Shown: positions 8,066 to 58,310 of the stretch, piece after piece
Layout of the letters: every line of letters begins with the position of its first letter
Numbering within the stretch: the first letter of the stretch is position 1
The notes under the pieces: model-generated
The model's input: the letters and a program-made list of their open reading frames with translations, nothing else
Databases searched by the model: none
Told to the model about the DNA's origin: nothing
Position numbers and translations under genes: made by a program
Source: Anisus vortex
Taxonomy: Eukaryota > Mollusca > Gastropoda > Planorbidae
Direction: 5' to 3'
NCBI GenBank assembly: GCA_949126835.1
Contig: OX421497.1
Span: forward strand, 9,234,920-9,298,919
DNA length: 64,000 bases

Positions 8066-8316
8066 TAATAAAGTAAATTACCCTTTGGACCAAATTGATC
8101 ATAGGGCAGGTAAAGCAGCGTTCACCTTTTTCTGTGGCCCCAGCATACTAGGTGATTGTGTGGCCAACACAATGCACAGCTGCCTTTACTTTACCCCAAC
8201 TAAGATCAGATACCCATCAGAGCTGGGTAGACTTGGGGATACCCTCCAGACCCGGGAAAAAATCCTAGCCTTCACCAGGATTCGAACTCAGGACCTTCGG
8301 TACGTCATAAGCTAAT
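8066..8316 (-). mobile_element. tRNA-derived SINE, copy B (inverted)
   Basis: Reverse orientation: tail complement ctttggaccaaattgatcat, body ggtgattgtgtggccaacac and tcagagctgggtagacttgg, ending in the tRNA-like B-box complement accaggattcgaactcagga. Confidence 0.85.
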
Positions 8317-9236: not shown

Positions 9237-9540
9237 CTAAACATTAAACTCTAATTTAGAAATACAACCCAATAACAGCCTGTTGCAAAGCTCAGATAAA
9301 CATAAAGACAAAAACACTTTCCTTATCTCTTATGTGAGAACAAATGCATATAAGTGCTTATTCTTCCCGAGTGGCATTTGGGCATGGAATGGGTTGCCTG
9401 AACAAACCAGGAAAACCAGTAACTTAACATTTAAAACATTAATAAAAATGCAAGACTAGAATCGGACCACGGATAAGCGTAGGACGCAATAATATTTTTT
9501 TATAGAAAGAGCGTCTGTAATGTATAAGATAAGAGTTTGA
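9237..9540 (+). mobile_element. Non-LTR retrotransposon 3' end fragment
   Basis: Homologous to 32268-32572 and 49800-50100. It encodes a degraded reverse-transcriptase C-terminus (characteristic ...SFFPSG-I-AWNGLPEQTRK...), then the tail gcaagactagaatcggacca, ggacgcaataat and a gataaga run. It lies some 160 bp from an inverted copy of the same tail. Confidence 0.8.
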
Positions 9541-11334
9541 ATTATAATCTTCATCTTCAATTTGACAGTCTAGACTACAAACCTCTGTCCACCTGGCCTT
9601 GGTGCTCAGTATTTTGTAGGCCTACTATTCTAAAGTTAACGATTTAAGTAGTTTTCCCTCATTGAACACAAGCGCTCACCAAAGTCAGCCTATAAACCCA
9701 ACTCTTTTTGCAACAGTATGTTCTTAAAGAACATTTTTGCACAAGTAAAAATTCTGAAAACATGTCAATTGAGAGAAAGCTAATCGTTTGGCTTTGATTG
9801 ATTGATTTGTCATCAACTGTTTTTAGATTTTTTTGAATACGGTAACCAAATATAAATGTCTGATGTTTTAGTTAAATTGTATGTTTTAGCAATTCACATT
9901 ATTAAAAAAAATGCTATTTATCATTATTTTTATTTTAATTCATGCAAAAATACATATCAGATGTTTCATTCTTTCTGACTGTCTGTCTTAAATGTCTGTC
10001 TAATCTTCAACTGTGTTATATTTCTTTTTTTTCTCTCTTTCTCTTTCTCACTCTCTCTTTCTCATTACATATATTATATTATATATAATACTTACATTTG
10101 AAAATACATTGAGATTTTATATTAACTTATATTTAAAATATTTGCTCTCACACACACACAAATTTGAAAGATTATTGTAGTTTTATATATTTTGATTCTG
10201 ATGTGATATTATCTACAATGTACACAACACCAAACAGGTGATGGTTTTGTACATATCTATATTTATTATATTTATGCTTTAATGACTTTGGATCCAAAAT
10301 GTTTTTATAAAGTTTTAATGGACAATAGTATAATTCCTATGTGGAGAGATGTATTTTCTTTTTAAAACAAAGAACTCGGGTTTCTCTTTTTTTTTCCATG
10401 TATATTTCTTTATTTTGTACCTTTTTTAATTTGTTTTTCTTTTGTGTTGTTACCTCTCGCTGACTAGTGTGGGCAGTTTATCTCAATGACTTTATGATAT
10501 TCTTGTATAATCCTCGCCCAAATTTCATCCAAGCAATTTAGAAACGATGTCAGCAGGAATAATTAACATAATTTTTAATTCAACATAACACATATATAAC
10601 ATCGAAGCTCAATGCAAGTTCAATTATAACAGGATTTAAGAAAAACACAAGAAGCAACCTAACAGTCTCTCAATGCAACACTCTACTCTCTACAAAAAAC
10701 TACACACCACACGGTTAGAAAACTCCATGTGATCGCTCATGCCAAATGGACAAGGGTCACAAAAAAGACTGACCACCTATTACAAGGAAAGGTAATTACA
10801 ACTACAGAAAAAAACAAGGGAGTTAATTAATTCTGTCCTCATACATCAAAATGTGTAATTTGTTTTTGTTAAAGTGTTTTCTTTTAGATACAAAAAAGAA
10901 TATAAACTATATTATTTTTGGTTGTAATAAGAATTGCATAAATTTTTTTTACCACAAAAACAATAAAATATTAACTTTTTAAATTTGAAAGCTAAAATAT
11001 TGGTTACTATATTTTGCAAGCAATATCTAACTAATCTCAATATTTTATGTAAGGACAAATTGAAAATGATTCTAAGTGACAACCCTTACTCACACACACA
11101 CTTATTAAATAATGAAACACTCTTGACAGATACAGTTTAAAAAAGCATTTTAAAAATTTAATACAAAAGCATTAACAAATGATAGGCCTAAAAGCAATTT
11201 GAGTAATTTTCTGACTAACATCTTAAACAAATGAAATATGTACATCATAATACAAGAACAAAACCTATAGTACAGAAAATGAATTATAATATAATGATGT
11301 TTTTATAATTAGATTTGAAATGAATGATAAATGA

Positions 11335-11620
11335 TAGGGTCTGTATAAAACTAGATATAGCTTAAGCATAATTTATATAGGCCTACAATATCAAGACTAG
11401 GGTCTATATAAAACCAGATATAGACTAAGCATGAATTATACGATACCTGTGCTAGGTTCTATATAAAACTAGATATACTACCGCATAAGAATATATTATA
11501 CGATAGGCCTATTAGGGCTAGGTTCCATATAAAACCATATATAGCCTAAGCATGTATTATACGATATCAGAGCTAGTGTCTGTGTAAAACTAGATATAGG
11601 GCCTAAGCATAGGCCTACTA
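11335..11620 (+). repeat. Diverged ~60-bp minisatellite downstream of TLR-1
   Basis: About five imperfect copies of a unit containing ggtctatataaaactagata, tagcctaagcat and tatacgatatc. The paralogous site at 31285-31870 is longer. Confidence 0.75.
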
Positions 11621-11909
11621 TGAATTGAAGTAATCGCGGTGAAAGGAGAGGCCCGGTTTCCCTATTCACGTCATTTTTTTTTCTAAAAGCGGAGATTAAT
11701 TAATTTTAGAAATTAAAGGCTAAGCATGTAGGCTACTAGAGACATTTGATATAGTACTAACTGGTACATCTTTGTTAGCATTCAAGTTACAGCATAATAT
11801 AGGCCTTCTTATATACATTTAGCTTGTATTTAAGTATTACTTTATGGACATTTTATACCCTACAGTGCACTATTTCTCATCTAATTGCCACCACAGTGTC
11901 GCACACTAC

Positions 11910-11970
11910 CTTGCCTGAACAAACCAGGAAAACCAGAAACTGAACATAATTTAAAAATGCCTACAAGAGT
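11910..11970 (+). mobile_element. Retrotransposon 3'-end remnant shared by both A blocks
   Basis: ttgcctgaacaaaccaggaa followed by aaccagaaactgaacat matches the element at 32268-32572. Most of the element is deleted here; the sequence rejoins the paralogue at gagtttagaaaaaaa. Confidence 0.6.
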
Positions 11971-12129
11971 TTAGAAAAAAACATCTGCCGCTTAGGCCTA
12001 AATTAGTATTATAGAACACAATGAGTTAATATATCATGTGCCATAAAAGAAAAAAGCCGACATGATAGCTGCCTGGTGAATTGAGCAAAATTATAACCTA
12101 ATAAAATGGCCTGGTCTGTGTAGTGTAGG

Positions 12130-12371
12130 CTATTCCCTTAAATCAGAACACAGCTTTGTCCAGAAACGGTCCATGGCATTTGTATTGTCCAGATCCTGTG
12201 GCAGCTGCATGTATGTATTGTTTTGTATGTGATACAACAGTTCCCTGTCCACCGCTTCTTTTGGAAGCTGCTCCACCAGCAGGAAAATTATCACCGAGCG
12301 ACCAGTGTGGACGCTTTCCATGTTGGCCATCTGAAGATCAAACGACACCAGGTGCTTTTCACTAGATGTGG
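12130..12371 (-). pseudogene. Array unit 1: probable original 3' terminus of TLR-1
   Basis: It differs from the inner units by ending ...FWTKLCSDLRE-stop with DNTNAMD, exactly as in TLR-2, whereas inner units end SDLMG with DDTNAMD. The flank beyond it (ataacctaataaaatggcct and gtgtagtgtaggctattccc) also matches the TLR-2 flank. It is therefore the old gene end displaced about 6.2 kb by array growth. It carries the one-base deletion upstream (atcaaacgacacc), so it is not an open continuation of the TIR domain. Confidence 0.75.
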
Positions 12372-15300
12372 ACTCACGACTAACCTTATGAGATTTTTAC
12401 AACTACATTGGACGGCCTGGTGAATTGAGCAAAATTATAGCCTAATAAAAGGGCCGGGTCTGTGTAGTGTAGGTTATCCCATTAAATCAGAGCAAAGCTT
12501 TGTCCAGAAAAGATCCATGGCATTTGTATCGTCCAGATCCTGTGGCAGCTGCATGTATGTATTGTTTTGTATGTGATACAGCAGTTCCCTGTCCACCGCT
12601 TCTTTTGGAAGCTGCTCCACCAGCAGGAAGATTATCACAGAGCGACCAGTGTGGACGCTTTCCATGTTGGCCATCTGGAGATCAAACGACACCAGGTGCT
12701 TTTTACTAGATGTGGACTCACGACTAACCTTATGAGATTTTTACAACTACATTGGACGGCCTGGTGAATTGAGCAAAATTATAGCCTAATAAAAGGGCCG
12801 GGTCTGTGTAGTATAGGTTATCCCATTAAATCAGAGCAAAGCTTTGTCCAGAAAAGATCCATGGCATTTGTATCGTCCAGATCCTGTGGCAGCTGCATGT
12901 ATGTATTGTTTTGTATGTGATACAGCAGTTCCCTGTCCACCGCTTCTTTTGGAAGCTGCTCCACCAGCAGGAAGATTATCACAGAGCGACCAGTGTGGAC
13001 GCTTTCCATTTTGGCCATCTGGAGCTCAAACGACACCAGGTGCTTTTCACTAGATGTGGACTCACGACTAACCTTATGAGATTTTTACAACTACATTGGA
13101 CGGCCTGGTGAATTGAGCAAAATTATAGCCTAATAAAAGGGCCGGGTCTGTGTAGTGTAGGTTATCCCATTAAATCAGAGCAAAGCTTTGTCCAGAAAAG
13201 ATCCATGGCATTTGTATCGTCCAGATCCTGTGGCAGCTGCATGTATGTATTGTTTTGTATGTGATACAGCAGTTCCCTGTCCACCGCTTCTTTTGGAAGC
13301 TGCTCCACCAGCAGGAAGATTATCACAGAGCGACCAGTGTGGACGCTTTCCATTTTGGCCATCTGGAGCTCAAACGACACCAGGTGCTTTTCACTAGATG
13401 TGGACTCACGACTAACCTTATGAGATTTTTACAACTACATTGGACGCCTGGTGAATTGAGCAAAATTATAGCCTAATAAAAGGGCCGGGTCTGTGTAGTG
13501 TAGGTTATCCCATTAAATCAGAGCAAAGCTTTGTCCAGAAAAGATCCATGGCATTTGTATCGTCCAGATCCTGTGGCAGCTGCATGTATGTATTGTTTTG
13601 TATGTGATACAGCAGTTCCCTGTCCACCGCTTCTTTTGGAAGCTGCTCCACCAGCAGGAAGATTATCACAGAGCGACCAGTGTGGACGCTTTCCATTTTG
13701 GCCATCTGGAGCTCAAACGACACCAGGTGCTTTTCACTAGATGTGGACTCACGACTAACCTTATGAGATTTTTACAACTACATTGGACGGCCTGGTGAAT
13801 TGAGCAAAATTATAGCCTAATAAAAGGGCCAGGTCTGTGTAGTGTAGGTTATCCCATTAAATCAGAGCAAAGCTTTGTCCAGAAAAGATCCATGGCATTT
13901 GTATCGTCCAGATCCTGTGGCAGCTGCATGTATGTATTGTTTTGTATGTGATACAACAGTTCCCTGTCCACCGCTTCTTTTGGAAGCTGCTCCACCAGCA
14001 GGAAAATTATCACCGAGCGACCAGTGTGGACGCTTTCCATGTTGGCCATCTGGAGATCAAACGACACCAGGTGCTTTTCACTAGATGTGGACTCACGACT
14101 AACCTTATGAGATTTTTACAACTACATTGGACGGCCTGGTGAATTGAGCAAAATTATAGCCTAATAAAAGGGCCGGGTCTGTGTAGTGTAGGTTATCCCA
14201 TTAAATCAGAGCAAAGCTTTGTCCAGAAAAGATCCATGGCATTTGTATCGTCCAGATCCTGTGGCAGCTGCATGTATGTATTGTTTTGTATGTGATACAG
14301 CAGTTCCCTGTCCACCGCTTCTTTTGGAAGCTGCTCCACCAGCAGGAAGATTATCACAGAGCGACCAGTGTGGACGCTTTCCATGTTGGCCAACTGGAGA
14401 TCAAACGACACCAGGTGCTTTTTACTAGATGTGGACTCACGACTAACCTTATGAGATTTTTACAACTACATTGGACGGCCTGGTGAATTGAGCAAAATTA
14501 TAGCCTAATAAAAGGGCCGGGTCTGTGTAGTATAGGTTATCCCATTAAATCCGAGCAAAGCTTTGTCCAGAAAAGATCCATGGCATTTGTATCGTCCAGA
14601 TCCTGTGGCAGCTGCATGTATGTATTGTTTTGTATGTGATACAGCAGTTCCCTGTCCACCGCTTCTTTTGGAAGCTGCTCCACCAGCAGGAAGATTATCA
14701 CAGAGCGACCAGTGTGGACGCTTTCCATTTTGGCCATCTGGAGCTCAAACGACACCAGGTGCTTTTCACTAGATGTGGACTCACGACTAACCTTATGAGA
14801 TTTTTACAACTACATTGGACGGCCTGGTGAATTGAGCAAAATTATAGCCTAATAAAAGGGCCGGGTCTGTGTAGTGTAGGTTATCCCATTAAATCAGAGC
14901 AAAGCTTTGTCCAGAAAAGATCCATGGCATTTGTATCGTCCAGATCCTGTGGCAGCTGCATGTATGTATTGTTTTGTATGTGATACAGCAGTTCCCTGTC
15001 CACCGCTTCTTTTGGAAGCTGCTCCACCAGCAGGAAGATTATCACAGAGCGACCAGTGTGGACGCTTTCCATTTTGGCCATCTGGAGCTCAAACGACACC
15101 AGGTGCTTTTCACTAGATGTGGACTCACGACTAACCTTATGAGATTTTTACAACTACATTGGACGGCCTGGTGAATTGAGCAAAATTATAGCCTAATAAA
15201 AGGGCCGGGTCTGTGTAGTGTAGGTTATCCCATTAAATCAGAGCAAAGCTTTGTCCAGAAAAGATCCATGGCATTTGTATCGTCCAGATCCTGTGGCAGC

Positions 15301-15568
15301 TGCATGTATGTATTGTTTTGTATGTGATACAGCAGTTCCCTGTCCACCGCTTCTTTTGGAAGCTGCTCCACCAGCAGGAAGATTATCACAGAGCGACCAG
15401 TGTGGACGCTTTCCATTTTGGCCATCTGGAGCTCAAACGACACCAGGTGCTTTTCACTAGATGTGGACTCACGACTAACCTTATGAGATTTTTACAACTA
15501 CATTGGACGGCCTGGTGAATTGAGCAAAATTATAGCCTAATAAAAGGGCCAGGTCTGTGTAGTGTAGG

Positions 15569-15817
15569 TTATCCCATTAAATCAGAGCAAAGCTTTGTCC
15601 AGAAAAGATCCATGGCATTTGTATCGTCCAGATCCTGTGGCAGCTGCATGTATGTATTGTTTTGTATGTGATACAGCAGTTCCCTGTCCACCGCTTCTTT
15701 TGGAAGCTGCTCCGCCAGCAGGAAGATCATCACCGAGCGACCGGTGTGGACGCTTTCCATGTTGGCCATCTGGAGCTCAAAGCGACACCAGGTGCTTTTC
15801 ACTAGATGTGGACTCAC
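15569..15817 (-). pseudogene. Array unit 11: TIR tail with the intact reading frame
   Basis: Unlike 16 of the other array units and TLR-1 itself, this unit has caaagcgacacc, so it reads SPHLVKSTWCRFELQMANME through VMIFLLAEQLPKEAVDRELL to FWTKLCSDLMG-stop in one frame. Its variants (gccagcaggaagatcatcac, cgaccggtg) match TLR-2 and the TLR-1 gene unit. It has no promoter or start that I can identify, so it is a gene fragment. Confidence 0.8.
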
Positions 15818-17289
15818 GACTAACCTTATGAGATTTTTACAACTACATTGGACGGCCTGGTGAATTGAGCAAAATTATAGCCTAATAAAAGGGCCGGGTC
15901 TGTGTAGTGTAGGTTATCCCATTAAATCAGAGCAAAGCTTTGTCCAGAAAAGATCCATGGCATTTGTATCGTCCAGATCCTGTGGCAGCTGCATGTATGT
16001 ATTGTTTTGTATGTGATACAGCAGTTCCCTGTCTACCGCTTCTTTTGGAAGCTGCTCCACCAGCAGGAAGATTATCACAGAGCGACCAGTGTGGACGCTT
16101 TCCATGTTGGCCATCTGGAGATCAAACGACACCAGGTGCTTTTTACTAGATGTGGACTCACGACTAACCTTATGAGATTTTTACAACTACATTGGACGGC
16201 CTGGTGAATTGAGCAAAATTATAGCCTAATAAAAGGGCCGGGTCTGTGTAGTATAGGTTATCCCATTAAATCAGAGCAAAGCTTTGTCCAGAAAAGATCC
16301 ATGGCATTTGTATCGTCCAGATCCTGTGGCAGCTGCATGTATGTATTGTTTTGTATGTGATACAGCAGTTCCCTGTCCACCGCTTCTTTTGGAAGCTGCT
16401 CCACCAGCAGGAAGATTATCACAGAGCGACCAGTGTGGACGCTTTCCATTTTGGCCATCTGGAGCTCAAACGACACCAGGTGCTTTTCACTAGATGTGGA
16501 CTCACGACTAACCTTATGAGATTTTTACAACTACATTGGACGGCCTGGTGAATTGAGCAAAATTATAGCCTAATAAAAGGGCCGGGTCTGTGTAGTGTAG
16601 GTTATCCCATTAAATCAGAGCAAAGCTTTGTCCAGAAAAGATCCATGGCATTTGTATCGTCCAGATCCTGTGGCAGCTGCATGTATGTATTGTTTTGTAT
16701 GTGATACAGCAGTTCCCTGTCCACCGCTTCTTTTGGAAGCTGCTCCACCAGCAGGAAGATTATCACAGAGCGACCAGTGTGGACGCTTTCCATTTTGGCC
16801 ATCTGGAGCTCAAACGACACCAGGTGCTTTTCACTAGATGTGGACTCACGACTAACCTTATGAGATTTTTACAACTACATTGGACGGCCTGGTGAATTGA
16901 GCAAAATTATAGCCTAATAAAAGGGCCGGGTCTGTGTAGTGTAGGTTATCCCATTAAATCAGAGCAAAGCTTTGTCCAGAAAAGATCCATGGCATTTGTA
17001 TCGTCCAGATCCTGTGGCAGCTGCATGTATGTATTGTTTTGTATGTGATACAGCAGTTCCCTGTCCACCGCTTCTTTTGGAAGCTGCTCCACCAGCAGGA
17101 AGATTATCACAGAGCGACCAGTGTGGACGCTTTCCATTTTGGCCATCTGGAGCTCAAACGACACCAGGTGCTTTTCACTAGATGTGGACTCACGACTAAC
17201 CTTATGAGATTTTTACAACTACATTGGACGGCCTGGTGAATTGAGCAAAATTATAGCCTAATAAAAGGGCCAGGTCTGTGTAGTGTAGG

Positions 17290-17538
17290 TTATCCCATTA
17301 AATCAGAGCAAAGCTTTGTCCAGAAAAGATCCATGGCATTTGTATCGTCCAGATCCTGTGGCAGCTGCATGTATGTATTGTTTTGTATGTGATACAGCAG
17401 TTCCCTGTCCACCGCTTCTTTTGGAAGCTGCTCCGCCAGCAGGAAGATCATCACCGAGCGACCGGTGTGGACGCTTTCCATGTTGGCCATCTGGAGCTCA
17501 AAGCGACACCAGGTGCTTTTCACTAGATGTGGACTCAC
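17290..17538 (-). pseudogene. Array unit 16: second TIR tail with the intact reading frame
   Basis: Same class as unit 11, five units away. It has caaagcgacacc, VMIFLLAE and the upstream gggccaggtctg variant. It marks the same position in the next higher-order repeat. Confidence 0.8.
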
Positions 17539-18483
17539 GACTAACCTTATGAGATTTTTACAACTACATTGGACGGCCTGGTGAATTGAGCAAAATTATA
17601 GCCTAATAAAAGGGCCGGGTCTGTGTAGTGTAGGTTATCCCATTAAATCAGAGCAAAGCTTTGTCCAGAAAAGATCCATGGCATTTGTATCGTCCAGATC
17701 CTGTGGCAGCTGCATGTATGTATTGTTTTGTATGTGATACAGCAGTTCCCTGTCCACCGCTTCTTTTGGAAGCTGCTCCACCAGCAGGAAGATTATCACA
17801 GAGCGACCAGTGTGGACGCTTTCCATTTTGGCCATCTGGAGCTCAAACGACACCAGGTGCTTTTCACTAGATGTGGACTCACGACTAACCTTATGAGATT
17901 TTTACAACTACATTGGACGGCCTGGTGAATTGAGCAAAATTATAGCCTAATAAAAGGGCCGGGTCTGTGTAGTGTAGGTTATCCCATTAAATCAGAGCAA
18001 AGCTTTGTCCAGAAAAGATCCATGGCATTTGTATCGTCCAGATCCTGTGGCAGCTGCATGTATGTATTGTTTTGTATGTGATACAGCAGTTCCCTGTCCA
18101 CCGCTTCTTTTGGAAGCTGCTCCACCAGCAGGAAGATTATCACAGAGCGACCAGTGTGGACGCTTTCCATTTTGGCCATCTGGAGCTCAAACGACACCAG
18201 GTGCTTTTCACTAGATGTGGACTCACGACTAACCTTATGAGATTTTTACAACTACATTGGACGGCCTGGTGAATTGAGCAAAATTATAGCCTAATAAAAG
18301 GGCCAGGTCTGTGTAGTGTAGGTTATCCCATTAAATCAGAGCAAAGCTTTGTCCAGAAAAGATCCATGGCATTTGTATCGTCCAGATCCTGTGGCAGCTG
18401 CATGTATGTATTGTTTTGTATGTGATACAGCAGTTCCCTGTCCACCGCTTCTTTTGGAAGCTGCTCCGCCAGCAGGAAGATCA

Positions 18484-20880
18484 TCACCGAGCGACCGGTG
18501 TGGACGCTTTCCATGTTGGCCATCTGGAGCTCAAACGACACCAGGTGCTTTTCACTAGATGTGGACTCACGAATATGAGCGTCTTACGACTGGATTGTAC
18601 GGCGTTGACAATGTTGGTGGTGATGAACTCCCCTGCTTTGAAGTACAACGTATGTATGTGCACCTTCAGGCCCCGAGATTTAAGTTCCGGTGTCAACGTG
18701 TCGTGGACGAAAATTTCGTCTTCGTCGGCGAACGACAGAAAATCGTCAAACTCGAACTCTTCGTTCAAGTCCTTACTGCGGTTGTTGGATTTGCAATACA
18801 GGTAAGCTGTGTAGTAAAGATACCTCAATTTCCAGCGGAGTTTGTACAGAACTGAAATTGCAATCCCACACATGACCAGAAAAGTAACTGCAATGACTGA
18901 TGTAAAGAGAGCCACATTGGGAATACACTGATGATTCAAATTGCGAAGCAAAGCTTCAAAGTCGTGAAAATACTTTTCAGAAATATCTTCGTAGACGCAT
19001 TTGTATCTGTCAAGGTTAACAAACTGTATGTAATTTAAAGCATTTGTCAACCATGAAATAAAATCTAGATTAGCACAGTAGCAATGTATGGGATTTTCCG
19101 AAAAGTCGATAGTTAAATTGTGATTGGCTGCAATAGAATCAAATACTTCTCTTACTGGACGCACAATTAAAGAAAGCACGGTTAGACTTAGATTTACAAA
19201 CTTAAGGTTGCGCAAATTGCTGATATTTACTGTAAAATAATACATGCCGTTTCTTTGCATATATAGACTTTCTAAACTATCGAGTCCTTCGAAAACGTTC
19301 CAACTCAATGTCAGAATATTGGTAAAACTAAGGTCCAGAACTTTCAAATTCTTGAGTTTTCTAAATATCGGCTTATACATACTGACGTTCCGTATGACAC
19401 TACTGCCCAACGAATTAGTGCTCAAATTTAGAAACTCCAGAGAAGTGAAATTGTCAAAAAATGTGTGCTCGATATGAGTGATGTAACAGTCCACTAAACT
19501 AAGATTTTTCAGTTTAGTTAGCCCTGTAAACGGACCTTTAAGTGACTGAATTTTATTGCCATTTAAAATCAATGTTTCCAGCGTATTGTTTGGGTTTACT
19601 TTAAACTCGCTTAAAGCGTAAGCAAGTCCAACAGTATCCATAGAAACATATTTGAGTTTAGGAGGTAGATTCAAGACAACAGCTTCCCAAGATGGATACG
19701 AATAGTCTGGGTTATGATGATCGCGTAAACTGTTTTCTAAACGCGGATACTCTTTGGGTAAATTGTAGCTTTCTACTTCACCATTTAAGATTAGAGTTTC
19801 CAAATTTAACATTGCTGAAAAATTCTTTAGGTAATAACCGAAAGTAAACCTATTATCAGAAAGGTCCAAATATGTCAGGTTTTGTGGGAGTAAGGCGAAG
19901 ACATCTGGTTCAATCATTGCCAGTCCATTGCTAGATGCAACTATGTGTGTCAGACTTCGTGGTAGGCTCCGTGCAAAATCATTAGTGACTTTAGCACATG
20001 GATTGTAGGGACTCATTATATTGTCGATAATTAAATGTGTCAAATTTTCGGAATCCATGTTCTTTAATGCTGGTGCCAAAAAATGGAAAAAGATAAATTC
20101 GTCGTTACTAAGGTCTAGTATAAGTAAGCTTTTTAATGGTATGAATGTTGAACTGTTAATTAAAGAGCCGTTGATGAAGCAAAATCTCATTTGTAACACG
20201 TGAAGTTGGGAAATATTGTTGAATGTGTCAGCATAAAGACTCTCAATCTCACAGTAACCCTCTCGTCCACCAATAATGCTCAGATTCCGTAACGACGTCA
20301 TGCTAATAAAACCTTCGCCGAAACGTTTATCTTTTAAACCATCCATCTGTAGAGTTGTCAGATTTTTCAAGTCAGACAAAGCCCTATCAGGATAAGATAG
20401 TTCAGAATCATTCACTATGGGATTATTTTTGTTTATCTTAAGAATTTGTAATGATCTCAGATCTCTGAACACTCCGTCTGGAAATGTAACATTGTTCATG
20501 ACCAATCTATTTCCATGCAGGTCTAAGTAAATAAGTCTCTCCAAACCTTTAAAACAGTCTTTAAGAAAACGTTCAATGAAATTGTTTCGTAAATAAAGTT
20601 CCTCAAGTTGTGTATATATTGTCAGGTTTGTATTGATTTCTGTTATACAATTATTGGACAAATCCAATATGGTTACATTCAAAGGAAACGTGCCTGGGAT
20701 AGCTTTAAGTGACATATAAGTGCAGTTGACTTTAGTGCCGGATATCTCACAATCTATTCTTTCAATGGGTCTGAAGTAATTTGAAGTGTTGTTATCATCC
20801 ATACACTCTTTAGCATTGGAGTAGAATCCTTGCACAATGCTGGCATAGAAAAGTATAGAAAAGGTTTTGCCTAATGTCAT
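18484..20880 (-). CDS. TLR: Toll-like receptor 1 of the cluster, TIR domain truncated by frameshift (probable pseudogene)
   Basis: 798-codon ORF; the ATG at 20880 directly follows attgcag, so a 5' UTR intron is likely. It has a signal peptide (about 1-20), about 20 LRRs with LxxLxLxxN motifs, a C-terminal cysteine cluster HCYC...C...C, a TM segment at about 657-680 (VALFTSVIAVTFLVMCGIAI) and a TIR from about 710. The first TIR half is present (DDFLSFADEDE, FKAGEFITTNI), but after KSTWCR one base is missing (caaacgacacc versus caaagcgacacc in TLR-2). The product ends with 16 out-of-frame residues, losing the second TIR half and the FW box 3. Two more changes hit conserved spots: box 1 FDVF is FDDF, and LDFKAG is LYFKAG. 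LRRs, TM and the rest are open and close to TLR-2, so inactivation is recent, or the product is a signalling-dead receptor. The TIR-tail array follows directly downstream. Confidence 0.9.
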   Translation of the reverse strand: MTLGKTFSILFYASIVQGFYSNAKECMDDNNTSNYFRPIERIDCEISGTKVNCTYMSLKAIPGTFPLNVTILDLSNNCITEINTNLTIYTQLEELYLRNNFIERFLKDCFKGLERLIYLDLHGNRLVMNNVTFPDGVFRDLRSLQILKINKNNPIVNDSELSYPDRALSDLKNLTTLQMDGLKDKRFGEGFISMTSLRNLSIIGGREGYCEIESLYADTFNNISQLHVLQMRFCFINGSLINSSTFIPLKSLLILDLSNDEFIFFHFLAPALKNMDSENLTHLIIDNIMSPYNPCAKVTNDFARSLPRSLTHIVASSNGLAMIEPDVFALLPQNLTYLDLSDNRFTFGYYLKNFSAMLNLETLILNGEVESYNLPKEYPRLENSLRDHHNPDYSYPSWEAVVLNLPPKLKYVSMDTVGLAYALSEFKVNPNNTLETLILNGNKIQSLKGPFTGLTKLKNLSLVDCYITHIEHTFFDNFTSLEFLNLSTNSLGSSVIRNVSMYKPIFRKLKNLKVLDLSFTNILTLSWNVFEGLDSLESLYMQRNGMYYFTVNISNLRNLKFVNLSLTVLSLIVRPVREVFDSIAANHNLTIDFSENPIHCYCANLDFISWLTNALNYIQFVNLDRYKCVYEDISEKYFHDFEALLRNLNHQCIPNVALFTSVIAVTFLVMCGIAISVLYKLRWKLRYLYYTAYLYCKSNNRSKDLNEEFEFDDFLSFADEDEIFVHDTLTPELKSRGLKVHIHTLYFKAGEFITTNIVNAVQSSRKTLIFVSPHLVKSTWCRLSSRWPTWKASTPVAR

Positions 20881-31284: not shown

Positions 31285-31870
31285 ATGATAGGGTCTATAT
31301 AAAACTAGATATAGCCTAAGCATAATTTATATACGATATCAAGGCAAGGGTCTATAGTCTTTATAAAGCCAGATATATAGCCTAAGCATATATTATACGA
31401 TATCAGTGCTAGGGCCTGTATAAAACTAGATATAGCCTAAACATAAAGGCAATTATACGTTATCAGGGCTAGATTCAATAAAAAAAAACAGATATAGCCA
31501 AACCATATATTATACGATATAATGGCTATGGTCCATATAAAACCATATATGGCCTAAGCATATATATATAATATAGGGCTAGGGTCCATATAAAACCATA
31601 TATGGCCTAAGCATATATATATAATATAGGGCTAGGGTCCATATAAAACCATATATGGCCTAAGCATATATATATAATATAGGGCTAGGGTCCATATAAA
31701 ACCATATATGGCCTAAGCATATATATATAATATAGGGCTAGGGTCCATATAAAACCATATATGGCCTAAGCATATATATATAATATCAGTGCTAGGGTCT
31801 ATATTAAAACCATATATGGCCTAAGCATATATTCTACGATATCAAGGCTAGGTTCTGTGTAAAACTAAAT
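31285..31870 (+). repeat. Minisatellite downstream of TLR-2 with a homogeneous 53-bp core
   Basis: Diverged ~60-bp units at the edges and about five near-identical 53-bp units in the centre (ccatataaaaccatatatgg followed by cctaagcatatatatataat; starts at 31533, 31586, 31639 and on). The paralogous site in copy 1 has only the diverged units. Confidence 0.9.
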
Positions 31871-32267
31871 ATAAACATAGGCCTACTATGAATTGATGTA
31901 ATCACGGTGAAGAGAGAGGTATATCATATTCACCTCATAAGCGGGAGATTCATTTTTAAAGAAATTAAAATTAAAGGCTACTAGAGACATTTATATAGCA
32001 CTAACAGGTACATTTTTGTTAGCATTCAAGTTACAACATAATATAGGGATTCTTATATACATTTAGTTTGTATTTAAATATTACTTTATGGGCATTTTAT
32101 ACCCTACAGTGCACCATTGCTCCCTCTCCAGTGCCCCACCCTACCTTTGGCTTAACCACTGGTAGGATGTTGTATATAATATTAATCTGTGAAATGAGCT
32201 GAACAACATTGTAAGAAACATGCGGTATTGAGATGATTTGCCTACAAGATAGTACAATAGTTCTTCA

Positions 32268-32938: not shown

Positions 32939-35506
32939 CTATTCCCTTAAATCAGAACACAGCTTTGTCCAGAAAAGGTCCATGGCATTTGTATTGTCCA
33001 GATCCTGTGGCAGCTGCATGTATGTATTGTTTTTTATGTGATACAACAACTCTCTGTCCACCGCTTCTTTTGGAAGCTGCTCCGCCAGCAGGAAGATCAT
33101 CACCGAGCGACCGGTGTGGACGCTTTCCATGTTGGCCATCTGGAGCTCAAAGCGACACCATGTGCTTTTCACTAGATGTGGACTCACGAAAATAAGCGTC
33201 TTACGACTGGATTGGACGGCGTTGACAATGTTGGTGGTGATGAACTCTCCTGCTTTGAAGTCCAACGTATGTATGTGAACCTTCAGGCCCCGAGATTTAA
33301 GTTCCGGTGTCAACGTGTCGTGGACGAAAATTTCGTCTTCGTCGGCGAACGACAGAAAAACGTCAAACTCGAACTCTTCGTTCAAGTCCTTACTGCGTTT
33401 GTTAGATTTGCAATACAGGTAAGCTGTGTAGTAAAGATACCTTAATTTCCAGCGGAGTTTGTACAGAACTGAAATTGCAATCCCACACATGACGAGAAAA
33501 GTAACTGCAATAACTGATGTAAAGAGAGCCACATTGGGAATACACTGACGATTTAAATCGCGAAGCAAAGCGTCGAAGTCGTGAAAATACTTTTCAGAAA
33601 TGTCTTCGTAGACGCATTTGTACCTGTCAAGTCTAACAAATTGTATGTAATTTAAAGCATTTGTCAACCATGAAATAAAATCTAGATTAGCACAGTAGCA
33701 ATGTATGGGATTCTCCGAAAAGTCGATAGTTAAATTGTTATTTGCTGCAATAGAATCAAATACTTCTCTTACTGAAGGCACAAATAAAGCCAGCTCAGTT
33801 AGACTTAGATTTACAAACTTAAGGTTTCGCAAATTGCTGATATTTACAGTAAAATAATACATGCCGTTTCTTTGCATATATAGACTTTCTAAACTATCAA
33901 GTCCTTCAAACACGTTCCAACTAATTGTCAGAATATTGGTAAAACTAAGGTCCAGAACTTTCAAATTCTTGAGATTCCTAAATATCGGCTTATAATTACT
34001 GACTTTCCGTATGACACTACTGCCCAACGAATTAGTGCTTAAATTCAAAAACTCTAGAGAAGTAAAATTGTCAAAAAATGTGTGCTCGATATGAGTGATG
34101 TAACAGTCCACTAAACTAAGATTTTTCAGTTTAGTTAGCCCTGTAAACGGACCTTTAAGTGACTGAATTTTATTGCCATTTAAAATCAATGTTTCCAGCG
34201 TATTGTTTGGGTTTACGTTAAACTCGCTTAAAGCGTAATAAAGTCCAGCGGTATCCATAGAAACATATTTGAGTTTAGGAGGTAGATTCAAGACAACAGC
34301 TTCCCAAGATGAATACAAATAGTCTGGGTTATAGAAGTTAAAGGGATCGCGTAAACTGTTTTCTAAACGCGGATACCATTTGGGTAAATTGTAGCTTTCT
34401 ACTTCACCATTTAAGATTAGAGTTTCCAAATTTAACATTGCTGAAAAATTCTTTAGGTAATAACCGAAAGTAAACCTATTGTCAGAAAGGTCCAAATATG
34501 TCAGGTTTTGTGGGAGTAAGCCGAAGACCTCTGGTTCAATCATTGCCAGTCCATTGCTAGATGCAACTATGTGTGTCAGACTTCGTGGTAGACTCCGTGC
34601 AAAATCATTAGTGACTTTTGCACATGGTGTATAGGGACTCATTATATTGTGTATAATTAAATGTGTCAAATTTTTGGAATCCATGTTCTTTAATGCTGGT
34701 GCCAAAAAATGGAAAAAGATAAATTCGTCGTTACTAAGATCTAGTTTACGTAAGCTTTTTAATGGTGTGAATGTTGAATTGTGAATTAAAGAGCCGTTGA
34801 TAAAGCAGAAATTGATTTGTAACACGTGAAGTTGTGATATATTGTTGAATGTGTCAGCATAAAGACTCTCAATCTGACAGTAACCTTCTCGTCCACCAAT
34901 AATGATCAGATTTTGTAACGACGTCATGTTACTAAACCCTTCACCGAAACGTTTATCTTTTAAACCATCCATATGTAGAGTTGTCAGATTTTTCAAGTAA
35001 GACAAAGCCCTATCAGGATAAGATAGTTCAGAATCATTCACTATGGGATTATTTTTGTTTATCTTAAGAATTTGTAATGACCTCAGATCTCTGAACACTC
35101 CGTCTGGAAATGTAATATTGTTCATTGCTAATCTATTTCCTTGCAAGTCTAAACGAATAAGTCTCTCCAGACCTTTAAAACAGTTTTTAAGAAAACGTTC
35201 AATGAAATTGTTTCGTAAATAAAGTTTTTCAAGTTGTGTATATATTGTCAGGTTTGTATTGATTTCTGTTATACAATTATTGGACAAATCCAATATGGTT
35301 ACATTCAAAGGAAACGTGTCTGGGATAGCTTTAAGTGACATATAAGTGCAGTTGACTTTAGTGCCGGATATCTCACAAGCTACTCTTTCCGTGTGTCTGA
35401 AGTAATTTGAAGTGCCGTTATCATCCAAACACTCATGAGCAATGGAGTAGACTCCTTGCACAATGCAGGAATAGAAAATTATACAAAAGGTTTTGCCTAA
35501 GGTCAT
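32939..35506 (-). CDS. TLR: Toll-like receptor 2 of the cluster, intact
   Basis: 855 residues from the ATG at 35506, which follows attgcag (5' UTR intron likely), to TAG at 32939. Signal peptide about 1-20; N-terminal cap with two Cys; about 20 LRRs (NVTILDLSNNCITEI, NLTYLDLSDNRFTF and others); single cysteine cluster NPIHCYC...YKC...RQC; TM about 659-682 (VALFTSVIAVTFLVMCGIAI); basic stop-transfer KLRWKLRYLYY; TIR about 712-855 with box 1 FDVFLSFADEDE, BB-loop LDFKAGEFITTNI and box 3 FWTKL. Length and the single cysteine cluster fit sccTLRs. In vertebrate and insect relatives the TIR recruits MyD88-type adaptors; the ligand is unknown here. The BB-loop has Ala where Pro is usual. It is the closest paralogue of TLR-1 and the only intact gene of block A. 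Confidence 0.97.
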   Translation of the reverse strand: MTLGKTFCIIFYSCIVQGVYSIAHECLDDNGTSNYFRHTERVACEISGTKVNCTYMSLKAIPDTFPLNVTILDLSNNCITEINTNLTIYTQLEKLYLRNNFIERFLKNCFKGLERLIRLDLQGNRLAMNNITFPDGVFRDLRSLQILKINKNNPIVNDSELSYPDRALSYLKNLTTLHMDGLKDKRFGEGFSNMTSLQNLIIIGGREGYCQIESLYADTFNNISQLHVLQINFCFINGSLIHNSTFTPLKSLRKLDLSNDEFIFFHFLAPALKNMDSKNLTHLIIHNIMSPYTPCAKVTNDFARSLPRSLTHIVASSNGLAMIEPEVFGLLPQNLTYLDLSDNRFTFGYYLKNFSAMLNLETLILNGEVESYNLPKWYPRLENSLRDPFNFYNPDYLYSSWEAVVLNLPPKLKYVSMDTAGLYYALSEFNVNPNNTLETLILNGNKIQSLKGPFTGLTKLKNLSLVDCYITHIEHTFFDNFTSLEFLNLSTNSLGSSVIRKVSNYKPIFRNLKNLKVLDLSFTNILTISWNVFEGLDSLESLYMQRNGMYYFTVNISNLRNLKFVNLSLTELALFVPSVREVFDSIAANNNLTIDFSENPIHCYCANLDFISWLTNALNYIQFVRLDRYKCVYEDISEKYFHDFDALLRDLNRQCIPNVALFTSVIAVTFLVMCGIAISVLYKLRWKLRYLYYTAYLYCKSNKRSKDLNEEFEFDVFLSFADEDEIFVHDTLTPELKSRGLKVHIHTLDFKAGEFITTNIVNAVQSSRKTLIFVSPHLVKSTWCRFELQMANMESVHTGRSVMIFLLAEQLPKEAVDRELLYHIKNNTYMQLPQDLDNTNAMDLFWTKLCSDLRE

Positions 35507-35820: not shown

Positions 35821-35967
35821 TATGCTTGCATTAAAAGGAATCTTAGGCCTAACTAGTAGGCTATCCTTTTTAATAATCGTTTTTGCTATAAATATTTTTT
35901 TCAATAATGACAACTTTATGATACGTATATCAAAGGATATTTTTTAAAAGGAGTTAATATGAAGTAA

Positions 35968-43913: not shown

Positions 43914-46469
43914 ATGACTTTAGGCAATATTTGTTGGATGATTGTCTTTGCCTGCGTCGTACAAGAATACAAAGTTAACTCTCAAGAGTGGGTTGATGCC
44001 AAATGCGACAACAATTCATTGTACAACGAAAAAAAAAGAAAAGATTGTGTGATATCCGGCACTAAAGTCAACTGCACTTATATGTCTCTTAAAGCCATCC
44101 CAGGCACGTTTCCTTTGAATGTAACCATATTGGATTTGTCCAATAATTGTATAACAGAAATCAATACAAACCTGACAATATATACACAGCTTGGGGAACT
44201 TTATTTACGAAACAATTTCATTGAACGTTTTCTAAAAGACTGTTTTAAAGGTTTGGAGAGACTCATTCATTTAGACTTGCAAGGAAATAGATTGGTCATG
44301 AACAATGTTACATTTCAAGACGGAGTGTTCAGAGATCTGAGATCATTACAAATTCTTAAGATAAACAAAAATAATCCCATAGTGAATGATACTGAACTAT
44401 CTTATCCGGATAGGGCTTTGTCTGACTTGAAAAATCTGACAACTCTACATATGGATGGTTTAAAAGATAAACGTTTCGGTGAAGGGTTTAGTAACATGAC
44501 GTCGTTACAAAATCTGATCATTTTTGGTGGACGAGAGGGTTACTGTCAGATTGCGAGTCTTCATGCTGACACATTCAACAATATTTCACAACTTCACGTG
44601 TTACAAATCAGATTCTGCTTCATCAACGGCTCTTTAATTGACAATTCAACATTCATACCATTAAAAAGCTTACGTATGCTAGATCTTAGTAACGACGAAT
44701 TTATCTTTTTCCATTTTTTGGCACCAGCATTAAAGAACATGGATTCCGAAAATTTGACACATTTAATTATACACAATATAATGAGTCCCTACAATCCGTG
44801 TGGTAAAGTCACTAATGATTTTGCACGGAGTCTACCACAAAGTCTGACACACATTGTTGCATCTGGCAATGGACTGGCAATGATTGAACCAGATGTCTTC
44901 GGCTTACTCCCACAAAACCTGACATATTTGGACCTTTCTGATAATAGGTTTACTTTCGGTTATTACCTAAAGAATTTTTCAGCAATGTTAAATTTGGAAA
45001 CTCTAATCCTAGATGGTGCAGTAGGAAGCTACAATTTACCCAAATGGTATCCACCATTAGAAGACAGTTTCTTTGACCCTAACATTCGACGTTATTCGTA
45101 TCCAGCATGGGAATTTGTTGTGTTAAAACTACCACCTAAGTTGAAGACTGTCTCTATGGATACTGCCGGACTTACTTATGATTTGAGTGAATTTCACATA
45201 GACCCAAACAATACGCTTGAAACACTGATTTTAAATAATAATAAAATACAGTCACTTAAAGGACCAATTACTGGTCTTACTAAGTTGAAAAACCTAAGTT
45301 TAGTAGACTGTCATATTAATTGCATTGAAACAAATTTTTTTGACAATTTCACTTCTCTAAAATTTCTGAATTTGAGCACAAATTCTTTTGGCAGTAGTGT
45401 CTTACGGAAAGATGCTAAGCCGATATTTAAGAACCTGAGAAATTTAAACGAGTTGGATCTAAGTTTCATAGGTATTTTGACGATTGATTTTAATGTTTTT
45501 GAAGGTCTCGATAGTTTGCAGGCACTTCACTTGCAAAGAAATGGCATGTGGTACTTTACAGTAAATATCAGCCATACGAAAAACTTAAAATTTGTTAATT
45601 TTAGCCAAAATGATCTTTCCTCGCTTTATCCGTCTGTAACTAATGAATTTGTTTCCATCGCAGAAAGTCACAACCTAAGTATTGACTTTTCAGAAAATCC
45701 CATACATTGCTACTGTTCTAACTTAGATTTCATTAAATGGCTAACACATTCTCATAACTCCATAAATTTTGTAAACCTAGAGAGATATAAATGCGTTTAC
45801 GAAGACAGTTCTGGGAAATATTTTCACGAGTTTGTCCAGTTAAACTATAACTTAGATCGTCAATGCATTGTTGATGTAGCTTTGTTGTGTAGTGTTACAT
45901 CTATAACTATTTTGATTGCATGTGCAATAGCCATTTCGATTATCTACAAATTCCGTTGGAAATTAAAATATTTGTACTACTCAGCATATCTCTATCTTAA
46001 GACAAAAAAATCTAACCAAGACAGCGCTGATCTATTTGAATTTGACGTCTTTCTTTCGTTTGCCAACGAAGACGAAACTTTCGTCCACAAGATGTTGGCG
46101 CCTGAGCTTAAATTTCGAGGCCTGAAGGTGCATATTCACACGGTGGATTTTATAGCTGGACAGTTCATCACCACCAACATTGTCAACGCCGTCCAATCCA
46201 GTCGTAAGACGCTCATAGTCGTGAGTCGGCATCTTCTGAAAAGTACCTGGTGTCGCTTTGAGCTTCAGATGGCCAACATGGAAAGCGTCCACACTGGTCG
46301 CTCGGTAATGATCTTCCTGCTGGTGGAACAGCTTCCAAAAGAAGATATGGACAGGGAGTTGTTGTATCACGTACAGAACAATACCTACATGCAGCTGCCA
46401 CAGGATCTGGATGATGCAAGTGCCATGGGTCTTTTCTGGACAAAGCTTTGCTCTGATTTAGTTGAGTAA
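43914..46469 (+). CDS. TLR: Toll-like receptor 3 of the cluster, intact, mosaic
   Basis: 851 residues; the ATG at 43914 follows tatttgcag (likely splice acceptor); stop TAA at 46467. Signal peptide, about 20 LRRs, cysteine cluster NPIHCYC...YKC...RQC, TM about 655-678 (VALLCSVTSITILIACAIAI), TIR about 708-851 with FDVFLSFANEDE, VDFIAGQFITTNI (no BB-loop Pro) and FWTKL. Residues 1-42 and about 385-851 resemble TLR-4 (KTKKS linker, IVVSRHLLKSTW, PKEDMDRELL), while residues about 43-380 are almost identical to TLR-1/2 (KVNCTYMSLKAIPGTFPLN, SYPDRALSDLKNL, CFINGSLI). Family role: pattern-recognition receptor signalling through its TIR; ligand unknown. A hAT MITE lies 50 bp past the stop. Confidence 0.97.
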   Translation: MTLGNICWMIVFACVVQEYKVNSQEWVDAKCDNNSLYNEKKRKDCVISGTKVNCTYMSLKAIPGTFPLNVTILDLSNNCITEINTNLTIYTQLGELYLRNNFIERFLKDCFKGLERLIHLDLQGNRLVMNNVTFQDGVFRDLRSLQILKINKNNPIVNDTELSYPDRALSDLKNLTTLHMDGLKDKRFGEGFSNMTSLQNLIIFGGREGYCQIASLHADTFNNISQLHVLQIRFCFINGSLIDNSTFIPLKSLRMLDLSNDEFIFFHFLAPALKNMDSENLTHLIIHNIMSPYNPCGKVTNDFARSLPQSLTHIVASGNGLAMIEPDVFGLLPQNLTYLDLSDNRFTFGYYLKNFSAMLNLETLILDGAVGSYNLPKWYPPLEDSFFDPNIRRYSYPAWEFVVLKLPPKLKTVSMDTAGLTYDLSEFHIDPNNTLETLILNNNKIQSLKGPITGLTKLKNLSLVDCHINCIETNFFDNFTSLKFLNLSTNSFGSSVLRKDAKPIFKNLRNLNELDLSFIGILTIDFNVFEGLDSLQALHLQRNGMWYFTVNISHTKNLKFVNFSQNDLSSLYPSVTNEFVSIAESHNLSIDFSENPIHCYCSNLDFIKWLTHSHNSINFVNLERYKCVYEDSSGKYFHEFVQLNYNLDRQCIVDVALLCSVTSITILIACAIAISIIYKFRWKLKYLYYSAYLYLKTKKSNQDSADLFEFDVFLSFANEDETFVHKMLAPELKFRGLKVHIHTVDFIAGQFITTNIVNAVQSSRKTLIVVSRHLLKSTWCRFELQMANMESVHTGRSVMIFLLVEQLPKEDMDRELLYHVQNNTYMQLPQDLDDASAMGLFWTKLCSDLVE

Positions 46470-55751: not shown

Positions 55752-58310
55752 ATGACCTTAATCCATATTTGCTGTATAATTGTATTCGCCTATATCAGGC
55801 ACAATTTCTACTGCAATGCTCATGAGTGTTTCGACGCTAAAAGCACAACCGGTACTAAATCTTTGAACGGAAAAAGTAGACAAGATTGTGAGATATCCGG
55901 TACAAACGTCAACTGCTCTGATATGTCACTTAAGGCCATTCCAGGCAACTTTCCGTTGAATGTAACCATACTGGATTTGTCCAATAATTGTATAATAGAA
56001 ATCAATACAAACCTGACAATTTATACACAACTTCAGGAGCTTTATCTACGGAATAATTTAATTATAAGATTTATAGAAAACTGTTTCAAAGGTTTGGAAA
56101 GTCTTGTACACTTAGATCTGCAAGGGAATAGATTGGCCATGAACAATGTTACATTTCCAGACGGAGTGTTTAAAGATTTGAAATCATTACAAATTCTTAA
56201 GTTGAACAAAAATAATCCCAAAAAGAATGATTCTGAGCTAACGTATCCTGACAGTGCTTTGTCTGACTTGAAAAATTTGACAACTCTACATATAGATGGT
56301 TTAAAAGATAAACGTTTTGGTGAAGGCTTTAATAAAATGATATCATTACGAAATCTCATTATTATTGGTATACGAAATGGTTACTGCCGGATAGAAAGTC
56401 TTCATAATGACACATTCAACCATCTTTCTCAACTTCAAGTGTTACAAATAAACTACTGCTTTATCAATGGCTCTTTAATGAACAAATTTACATTCAGACC
56501 CTTACGACATTTGCGAACACTAGACCTTAGTAATGATGATTTTATATTTTTCCATAATCTGGCACCAGCTTTAAAGGAAATGGACTCTGAGAATCTAACA
56601 CATTTAATCATTCACAGTATAATGAGTCCATACACTCCGTGTGCTAAAGTAACTAATGAATTTGCAAAAAGTTTACCACGAAGTCTGACATATATAGTTG
56701 CATCTAGCAATGGATTGGCAAAAATTGGCACTTTGGTCTTTGACTTACTTCCACAAAACCTGACATATTTAGACCTATCAGACAATAGATTAACGATTGG
56801 CTATTACCTTAAAAATATTTCCGCAATGTCAAATCTGGAAACACTCATCTTAAATGGTGAAGTAGGAAGTCACAATTTACCCAAATATTTTCCACGTTTA
56901 GAAGACATTGTCAGCGAAAAGTACATCCCAGACTATCCCAACCTATCTTGGGAACCCTTCTTTTTAAAACTACCTCCTCAACTGAAGACCGTCTCTATGG
57001 ATACTGCTGGACTTAGCTATTATTTGAGTGAATTCCACGTTGATCCAAACAACTCGCTGGAAACACTCATTTTAAATAACAATAAAATTCAGTCGCTTAA
57101 AGGACCTATTACCGGCCTAACTAAATTGAAGAACTTAAGTTTAGCTGACTGTCATATTAATCATATAGATCACACATTTTTCGACAATTTTACATCTCTG
57201 GAATTTCTTAACTTGAGCACCAACTCATTTGGAAGTAGTGTTTTACGCAGGGGCAGTGATCCGAGGTTTAAGAATCTCAAAAATTTAAAAGAGCTTGACC
57301 TTAGCTTTATAAGTATTCTGAACATAGGAGAGAATGCTTTGGAAGGACTAGTTAGTTTACAAAAACTTCACTTGCAGAGAAACGGAATGTACAACTTCAC
57401 GGTCAATATCAGCCACACAAGCGATTTGATGTTTGTTAATTTTAGTCAAAATGATCTTTCCTTGCTGGTTTCGTCAGTGACGATTGGCTTTGATGCTATC
57501 GCAGAAAATCACAATTTGACTATAGACTTTTCAGAGAATCGCATACATTGTTATTGTTCAAATTTACATTTCATTCAATGGTTAACAAATCCCAACAAAT
57601 ACATACATTTTGTAAATCTGGAAAGATATAAATGTTCCTACGAAGACAGACCTTGGAACTATTTTGACGAGTTCCTGACCCTACACCAGCATTTTGATCG
57701 TGAATGCAATGTTAATGTTACTTTATTTTTCACGGTTACATCTGTAACTATTTTATTCGTATGCGTAGTTGTTATTTTCATGTTGTATAAGTTTCGTTGG
57801 AAACTAAAATATTTGTACTACTCAGCATATCTCTACCTTAAGACAAAAAAGACTCTTCAAGGCCGCGCTGACATGTTCGAGTTTGACGTCTTTGTCTCGT
57901 TCTCCAACGAAGACGAAACTTTCGTCCACGAAACGTTAACACCCGAACTTAAATCTCGAGGCTTGAAGGTGCATATCCACACGGCGGACTTCAAAGCCGG
58001 AGAGTTCATCACCACCAACATTGTCAACGCTGTCCAATCCAGTCGTAAGACGCTCATAGTCGTGAGTCGACATCTTCTGAATAGCACCTGGTGTCGCTTT
58101 GAGCTCCAGATGGCCAACATGGAAAGCGTCCACACTGGTCGCTCGGTGATGATCTTCCTGCTGGTGGAACAGCTACCAAAAGAAGACATGGACAGGGAGT
58201 TGTTGTATCACGTACAGAACAATACCTACATGCAGCTGCCACAAGATCTGGACGATGCAAGAGCCATGGATATTTTCTGGACAAAGCTTTATTCTGATTT
58301 AATTGAGTAA
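55752..58310 (+). CDS. TLR: Toll-like receptor 4 of the cluster, intact
   Basis: 852 residues from the ATG at 55752 (after attgcag) to TAA at 58308. Signal peptide about 1-24 (TLIHICCIIVFAYIRHNFYC), about 20 LRRs (NVTILDLSNNCIIEI, NLTYLDLSDNRLTI, SLETLILNNNKIQSL), cysteine cluster NRIHCYC...YKC...REC, TM about 656-679 (VTLFFTVTSVTILFVCVVVI), KFRWKLKYLYY stop-transfer, TIR about 709-852 with FDVFVSFSNEDE, ADFKAGEFITTNI and FWTKL. It is the most diverged of the four in the LRRs, yet its TIR 3' half is nearly identical to the others. Number meaning: fourth in this cluster, not vertebrate TLR4. Ligand unknown; sccTLR architecture. Confidence 0.97.
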   Translation: MTLIHICCIIVFAYIRHNFYCNAHECFDAKSTTGTKSLNGKSRQDCEISGTNVNCSDMSLKAIPGNFPLNVTILDLSNNCIIEINTNLTIYTQLQELYLRNNLIIRFIENCFKGLESLVHLDLQGNRLAMNNVTFPDGVFKDLKSLQILKLNKNNPKKNDSELTYPDSALSDLKNLTTLHIDGLKDKRFGEGFNKMISLRNLIIIGIRNGYCRIESLHNDTFNHLSQLQVLQINYCFINGSLMNKFTFRPLRHLRTLDLSNDDFIFFHNLAPALKEMDSENLTHLIIHSIMSPYTPCAKVTNEFAKSLPRSLTYIVASSNGLAKIGTLVFDLLPQNLTYLDLSDNRLTIGYYLKNISAMSNLETLILNGEVGSHNLPKYFPRLEDIVSEKYIPDYPNLSWEPFFLKLPPQLKTVSMDTAGLSYYLSEFHVDPNNSLETLILNNNKIQSLKGPITGLTKLKNLSLADCHINHIDHTFFDNFTSLEFLNLSTNSFGSSVLRRGSDPRFKNLKNLKELDLSFISILNIGENALEGLVSLQKLHLQRNGMYNFTVNISHTSDLMFVNFSQNDLSLLVSSVTIGFDAIAENHNLTIDFSENRIHCYCSNLHFIQWLTNPNKYIHFVNLERYKCSYEDRPWNYFDEFLTLHQHFDRECNVNVTLFFTVTSVTILFVCVVVIFMLYKFRWKLKYLYYSAYLYLKTKKTLQGRADMFEFDVFVSFSNEDETFVHETLTPELKSRGLKVHIHTADFKAGEFITTNIVNAVQSSRKTLIVVSRHLLNSTWCRFELQMANMESVHTGRSVMIFLLVEQLPKEDMDRELLYHVQNNTYMQLPQDLDDARAMDIFWTKLYSDLIE

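Follow-up and report, generated by a model that had tools for sequence, protein, structure and literature searches.

A Tandem Array of TIR-Domain Ends in a Toll-like Receptor Gene of Anisus vortex: A Candidate Young Gene-Derived Satellite

The window analyzed here, a 64,000-nt stretch of Anisus vortex DNA (contig OX421497.1, from a single assembly; the stretch has an N count of 0), contains four genes for Toll-like receptors (TLRs), one of which carries within its own 3′ end a tandem array of 344-bp copies of a TLR TIR-domain 3′ end. Taken together, the observations described below make it somewhat probable, in our judgment, that this array is a young gene-derived satellite seated within a TLR gene at its 3′ end and shaped by unequal crossing-over and gene conversion.

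Results

The tandem array is confirmed as assembled. TRF reports one array at 12071–18572 (period 344, 18.9 copies, 98% matches, score 12587), and 19 unit starts were located from 12072 to 18265 at a spacing of 343–345 bp. Eighteen of the units, u01 to u18, are full (343–345 bp each; 12072..18264, minus strand, in the TIR-coding sense). The nineteenth, u19 (18265..18571, minus strand), merges into the adjacent TLR gene, gene 1, and constitutes its current 3′ end, namely the final TIR codons and the 3′ untranslated region (UTR), with the 3′ part of this copy being array-type. All 18 unit–unit junctions are of one type, with 17 identical and one short by a single base; in each, the unit end CCAGG meets TIR codons, the two sharing an overlap of 2 bp (GC).

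These results bear out a first-pass annotation of the window, which had described 18 extra 344-bp units in head-to-tail order, each holding a TLR TIR-domain 3′ end plus flank. The unit content is indeed the 3′ end of a TLR TIR domain together with 3′ UTR. The figure of about 85 TIR codons per unit is corrected here, as the coding part of the two units with an open frame (u11 and u16) comprises 94 codons and a stop. The block, at 6.5 kb, is also longer than any of the four open reading frames (ORFs) of at least 120 aa, which are the TLR ORFs of genes 1–4 (798–855 aa). In a self-comparison of the window (matches of 80 bp or more, E up to 1e-8), the array units hit nothing else but the homologous TLR 3′ ends, and a tblastn search of the window with gene 2 (E up to 0.01, hits wholly inside 12000–18600 omitted) listed no TLR fragments outside the four genes.

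With respect to position, the array sits on the minus strand within the 3′ end of gene 1, between the TIR codons and the original 3′ flank. Gene 1 (18484..20880, minus strand) is a TLR ORF of 798 aa whose TIR domain is truncated by a frameshift near 18536. Its intact sister, gene 2 (32939..35506, minus strand, 855 aa), has no array and represents the empty site, as it matches the body of gene 1, unit u01 and the 3′ flank, with the repeat absent between them. The original 3′ flank of the gene 1 locus (11962..12071, minus strand) is homologous to the gene 2 flank (84% over about 110 bp). The earlier placement of the array directly after a TLR gene is corrected accordingly: the array is not simply downstream, as it interrupts the gene's own 3′ end.

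At each end of the array, gene-type and array-type sequence are joined in a chimera. Specifically, the edge unit u01 (12072..12415, minus strand) has an array-type 5′ part and a gene-2-type 3′ part that leads into the original flank. It is array-type through unit column 191, shares column 194 with the genes and with u06, and from column 245 onward departs from the common units at 11 positions, of which 10 are gene-2-type and one (264) is private. At the opposite edge, u19 is gene-type at columns 19–50 and 127–156, carries the deletion of the array at column 88, and is array-type from 190. These chimeric ends indicate that the array interrupts gene 1 inside its TIR codons and that the last codons and 3′ UTR of the present gene 1 are array-type. 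A transposon was considered as the carrier of the array and is disfavored, as both flanks match the gene 2 locus.

In terms of internal organization, units u02–u19 fall by their variable sites into types arranged as A-B-C-C-D three times and then C-C-D, with the D unit of the first block (u06) being a variant, D′. The resulting higher-order copies, all on the minus strand, lie at 12416..14134 (copy 1, u02–u06, A-B-C-C-D′), 14135..15855 (copy 2, u07–u11, A-B-C-C-D) and 15856..17576 (copy 3, u12–u16, A-B-C-C-D), and a partial copy 4 (C-C-D, 17577..18571) has gene 1's own 3′ end as its D unit. Over columns 1–309 of u02–u19, units differ on average by 1.77 at lag 5, 2.50 at lag 10 and 3.33 at lag 15, compared with 3.4–5.0 at the remaining lags from 1 to 16 and 7 at lag 17, which is a single pair. 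Five is the best of periods 1–9 by unit differences across u02–u19, and the observed mean for lags 5, 10 and 15 was matched in 7 of 5000 shuffles of unit order, a frequency that applies to a period noticed before testing. The higher-order copies are mutually 99.4–99.8% identical, with 10 (copies 1 and 2), 9 (1 and 3) and 3 (2 and 3) differences per 1721 positions. The eight C units (u04, u05, u09, u10, u14, u15, u17 and u18) show zero differences over columns 1–309, and private variants are found in u04, u07, u08 and u12.

Higher-order repeats have been described as adjacent monomers that are jointly amplified and homogenized (PMC5615363, in excerpt), and we infer that the five-unit pattern follows from unequal exchange in a five-unit register. 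The 3–10 differences per 1721 positions between copies, set against the synonymous divergence of 0.12 between genes 1 and 2, place the amplification long after the gene duplication. By its sequence pattern, the array behaves as a young satellite.

To place the founder of the array, we used columns 51–160 of u19 and columns 207–301 of u01 as gene-1-type ends, which gave 204 gap-free columns. Over these columns, 2 positions separate the gene 1 ends from gene 2, and 13 separate either of them from unit u05. Tree counts were limited to the 191 of 204 columns in which genes 3 and 4 share a state, leaving 13 uncounted; there, all seven informative sites pair the gene 1 ends with gene 2 against the array and none supports another pairing, with a bootstrap value of 99. 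Moreover, the first 36 unit columns are unlike all four genes, with 21 (gene 2), 24 (gene 3) and 23 (gene 4) of 30 positions identical, plus a 6-bp insertion. These comparisons favor a founder from a TLR lineage related to, and distinct from, today's genes 1 and 2. The adjacent gene 1 had been named as the parent; the seven sites set the array apart from it, with the proviso that conversion between genes 1 and 2 could mimic this grouping. Simple derivation of the array from today's gene 1 is weakened by these sites and by the chimeric ends, and given that possible conversion it is retained as a rival and taken up in the Discussion.

A 1-bp deletion at column 88 is present in 16 of the 18 units and in gene 1 (near 18536), and is absent from genes 2–4 and from u11 and u16. 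In the deleted units the reading frame runs into two adjacent stops. The unit u11 (open TIR end at 15569..15853, minus strand) has a gene-2-like tract at columns 88–156, and u16, the second unit with an open TIR end (17290..17574, minus strand), equals u11 over columns 1–309. Seven sites separate u11/u16 from u06: at columns 88, 94, 127, 142, 145 and 156 the former have the gene 2 state, and at column 194 u11/u16 have the array state and u06 the gene state. Since gene 2 differs from genes 3 and 4 at columns 127 and 156, the tract is gene-1/2-type and not merely ancestral. Over columns 1–309 the deletion is the sole difference between u16 and u19. The tract points to exchange between array units and gene-type sequence, and the sequence exchange envisaged in the first-pass annotation is visible both here and in the array-type end of gene 1. 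As the simplest order, we infer that gene-type sequence entered a D unit and that gene 1 then acquired the deletion from the array; other sequences of exchange, an identical deletion arising independently or a polishing error may be alternatives.

Before the frameshift, genes 1 and 2 show a dN/dS of 0.34 at the synonymous divergence given above, and polarized codon changes number 22 synonymous and 26 nonsynonymous in gene 1, compared with 18 and 19 in gene 2. Genes 1 and 2 are equally constrained up to that point, and the loss of gene 1 therefore appears recent. The array is probably responsible for this truncation.

Signs of conversion extend across the TLR cluster. Genes 1, 2 and 3 are nearly equidistant in codons 46–350, with synonymous differences of 0.06–0.15, and in codons 351–735 gene 3 is far from genes 1 and 2 (0.41–0.83); gene 4 differs from genes 2 and 3 by 0.31–0.73 throughout the LRR part. 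Codons 46–350 are thereby a conversion candidate in the LRR ectodomain, at about 19831–20745 in gene 1 and 44049–44963 in gene 3. In the unit-covered codons 765–857, synonymous difference is 0.16–0.36 for pairs 2–3, 2–4 and 3–4, against 0.35–0.83 in codons 451–764, and the fall among genes 2–4 starts already at codons 736–764. Gene 1 offers just 15–16 synonymous sites in codons 765–857 before its cut. Such bounded segments of low divergence make gene conversion among the TLR paralogues likely, and the segment repeated in the array lies in what appears to be a homogenized gene end.

The remaining TLR genes, both without an array, are on the plus strand: gene 3 (43914..46469, 851 aa) and gene 4 (55752..58310, 852 aa). 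Pfam LRR and TIR matches are found in all four ORFs, with the TIR match of gene 1 stopping at residue 782 of 798. The best 120 of 481 relatives found for gene 2 (7984 candidates scored) are headed by six Biomphalaria and Bulinus proteins with 52–61% identity, in line with a freshwater pulmonate-like gastropod as the probable source. In a conserved stretch at the start of the TIR domain, genes 2–4 read FDVF, and gene 1 carries a private FDDF.

The window also holds other repeats. A 46-bp minisatellite (5381–6210) has 18 copies at 98%. Tandem repeats of 53/159 bp lie downstream of gene 2 (31373–31852), with a diverged counterpart downstream of gene 1 (11326–11611), and an AC-rich degenerate repeat tract of 1.36 kb occupies 40993–42355 between genes 2 and 3. 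One dispersed repeat family, with members 76–86% alike and reaching about 230 bp, is represented in both orientations at 2636–2809, 8071–8307, 35958–36138, 39671–39921, 59300–59524 and 60524–60752. A second dispersed repeat of up to 300 bp, 82–91% alike, is found at 9242–9534, 32266–32577, 49835–50100 and 43728–43842, including positions close to the 3′ flanks of gene 1 and gene 2.

Discussion

Our preferred reading of the array as a young gene-derived satellite can be set out as a series of proposed steps. The founder would have been a TIR 3′ end of about 344 bp from a related TLR lineage, already carrying the 1-bp deletion. It may have been duplicated a single time by microhomology end joining, either in place or through a small circular DNA intermediate that integrated at the TIR codons of gene 1 by homologous crossover, and unequal crossing-over would have amplified the duplicated unit. 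The D units would have received their gene-type sequence by gene conversion, and the same process most likely handed gene 1 the array's disabling deletion; gene 1, until recently constrained, would now encode a TIR-truncated receptor. The array would have no dedicated function, and its effect would be a damaged and lengthened 3′ end of the host gene.

Several points weigh against this scheme, and some of them speak for a serious rival, a strictly in-place origin, which we regard as possible and yet doubtful. Here the units would stem from gene 1's own array-type 3′ end, and conversion by gene 2 would later have reset the edges, that is the 5′ part of u19 and the 3′ part of u01. The distance between the array and gene 2 (13 of 204) resembles the average divergence of genes 1 and 2 (129 of about 2343). 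The gene 1 ends are in turn closer to gene 2 than expected, as 2 differences in 204 have P = 0.009 at the rate of the transmembrane plus TIR region and P = 0.0008 at the rate of the whole coding sequence. Likewise, columns 207–360 of u01 differ from gene 2 at 3 of 150 positions compared with 13 of 110 in the adjoining flank (p = 0.0014). The regions for these similarity tests were picked after inspection, and in codons 765–781 just upstream, where genes 1 and 2 are unlike at 4 of 15 synonymous sites, there is no excess likeness. Recent conversion between genes 1 and 2 could fake the grouping that suggests an older founder, and the conversion signals elsewhere in the TLR cluster are in keeping with it. 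An in-place origin would, however, require separate conversions at each edge of the array, and gene 1 bears no trace of the array-type first 36 columns, where 21 of 30 positions match gene 2 and a 6-bp insertion is present. Apart from the founder, the circle step of our scheme is conjectural; the direction in which the deletion moved rests on a single base, which a polishing error in u19 could mimic; and D′ (u06) is u01-like and lacks the gene-type tract, so that the order of exchanges is not unique.

An assembly artifact, in which the true copies are fewer or polishing has spread variants among them, seems improbable. The near identity of higher-order copies 2 and 3 (3 differences in 1721) would suit it, but the private variants of u04, u07, u08 and u12 and the ordered A-B-C-C-D types would not, and neither would two edges that are distinct chimeras in a window with zero N.

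With respect to function, the TIR is the signaling domain of these receptors and not the recognition domain. The first-pass annotation had raised the hypothesis that the array serves as a store of gene-conversion donors, and a dedicated array that diversifies or repairs TLR sequence would find some encouragement in the exchange tracts between units and gene-type sequence. For snail fibrinogen-related proteins (FREPs), somatic diversification is reported in which gene conversion draws on a small number of germ-line sources (PMC3313920, in excerpt). This proposal is not supported by the composition of the array, and we have dropped it as the leading reading. Sixteen of the 18 units are frameshifted with double stops and would inactivate the recipient, the unit is a signaling-domain end and not part of the LRR ectodomain, the eight invariant C units (columns 1–309) have no diversity to offer, genes 2–4 have no such array, and the five-unit structure is satellite-like. 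As most units would break the recipient and recognition does not lie with the TIR, a dedicated donor role is very unlikely. A more speculative variant, and one that we hold to be very improbable indeed, is a switch driven by conversion, in which the 16 broken and 2 open TIR ends toggle gene 1 between a signaling and a TIR-truncated TLR in a manner resembling phase variation. If true, short conversion tracts could toggle a receptor within or between animals. The sole observation in its favor is the array-type 3′ end of gene 1 with its shared deletion, a single germ-line, inactivating pattern in one assembly. A search among annotated proteins of similar length in other genomes for short TIR-end proteins like the open units gave one candidate, and none at E 0.001.

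We likewise see little prospect that the consequences of the array, whether a long repetitive 3′ UTR or a TIR-truncated and possibly inhibitory receptor, have been selected. The coding strand has no AATAAA or ATTAAA from the stop of the u19 frame to 11162, about 7.2 kb, and gene 2 has an ATTAAA about 0.2 kb past its stop, so if canonical poly(A) signals are needed, the predicted gene 1 transcript would run through the array. This, together with the conservation of gene 1 upstream of the frameshift, would be compatible with such a use, but poly(A) signals may be non-canonical and the recent deletion suggests decay over long-term use. Nor did 11900–18700 match anything in Rfam at E up to 1, a result that equally led us to set aside a ribozyme-bearing satellite.

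Under the preferred reading of a young satellite, this one locus would preserve several steps of satellite birth: a junction of one type, a sister gene that shows the empty site, chimeric edges, amplification in units of five, and exchange with a gene. The array also suggests how repeat expansion can inactivate an innate immune receptor, with possible variation between individuals as a consequence. In Biomphalaria, knockdown of one TLR altered schistosome resistance, in work that the excerpted text of PMC10903818 describes. No earlier report of a TIR-end array was found among titles and the opening parts of abstracts, a scope that lay mostly outside the subscription literature; the papers listed there for satellite DNA and TLRs in mollusks dealt with the mapping of scallop chromosomes.

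Comparison with known systems places the array between several of them, insofar as the excerpts of the cited sources describe these. Small extrachromosomal circular DNA (eccDNA), or microDNA (PMC11879418), offers a parallel in that a unit of <400 bp and short junction microhomology fit a model of microhomology end joining; unlike the situation with eccDNA, no circle has been observed here, and a 2-bp GC junction is equally expected from ordinary tandem duplication. The snail FREP genes (PMC3313920) are likewise a gastropod immune family with gene conversion from germ-line sources, whereas the present case concerns a TLR and a mostly broken end of its signaling domain. A closer likeness is found in mammalian TLR1 and TLR6 (PMC2077338), neighboring TLR paralogues homogenized over a C-terminal region that includes most of the TIR domain. 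There, whole genes convert one another, whereas here an array of fragments participates and the gene bears the disabling deletion of that array. Finally, the homogenized head-to-tail monomers and multi-monomer higher-order units recall primate alpha satellite (PMC5615363), and unequal crossing-over, gene conversion and circle reinsertion are among the satellite mechanisms discussed in that source. In contrast to alpha satellite, the array described here has 18 units at one known site, its monomer is the end of a protein-coding gene, and the host gene itself forms the last monomer.

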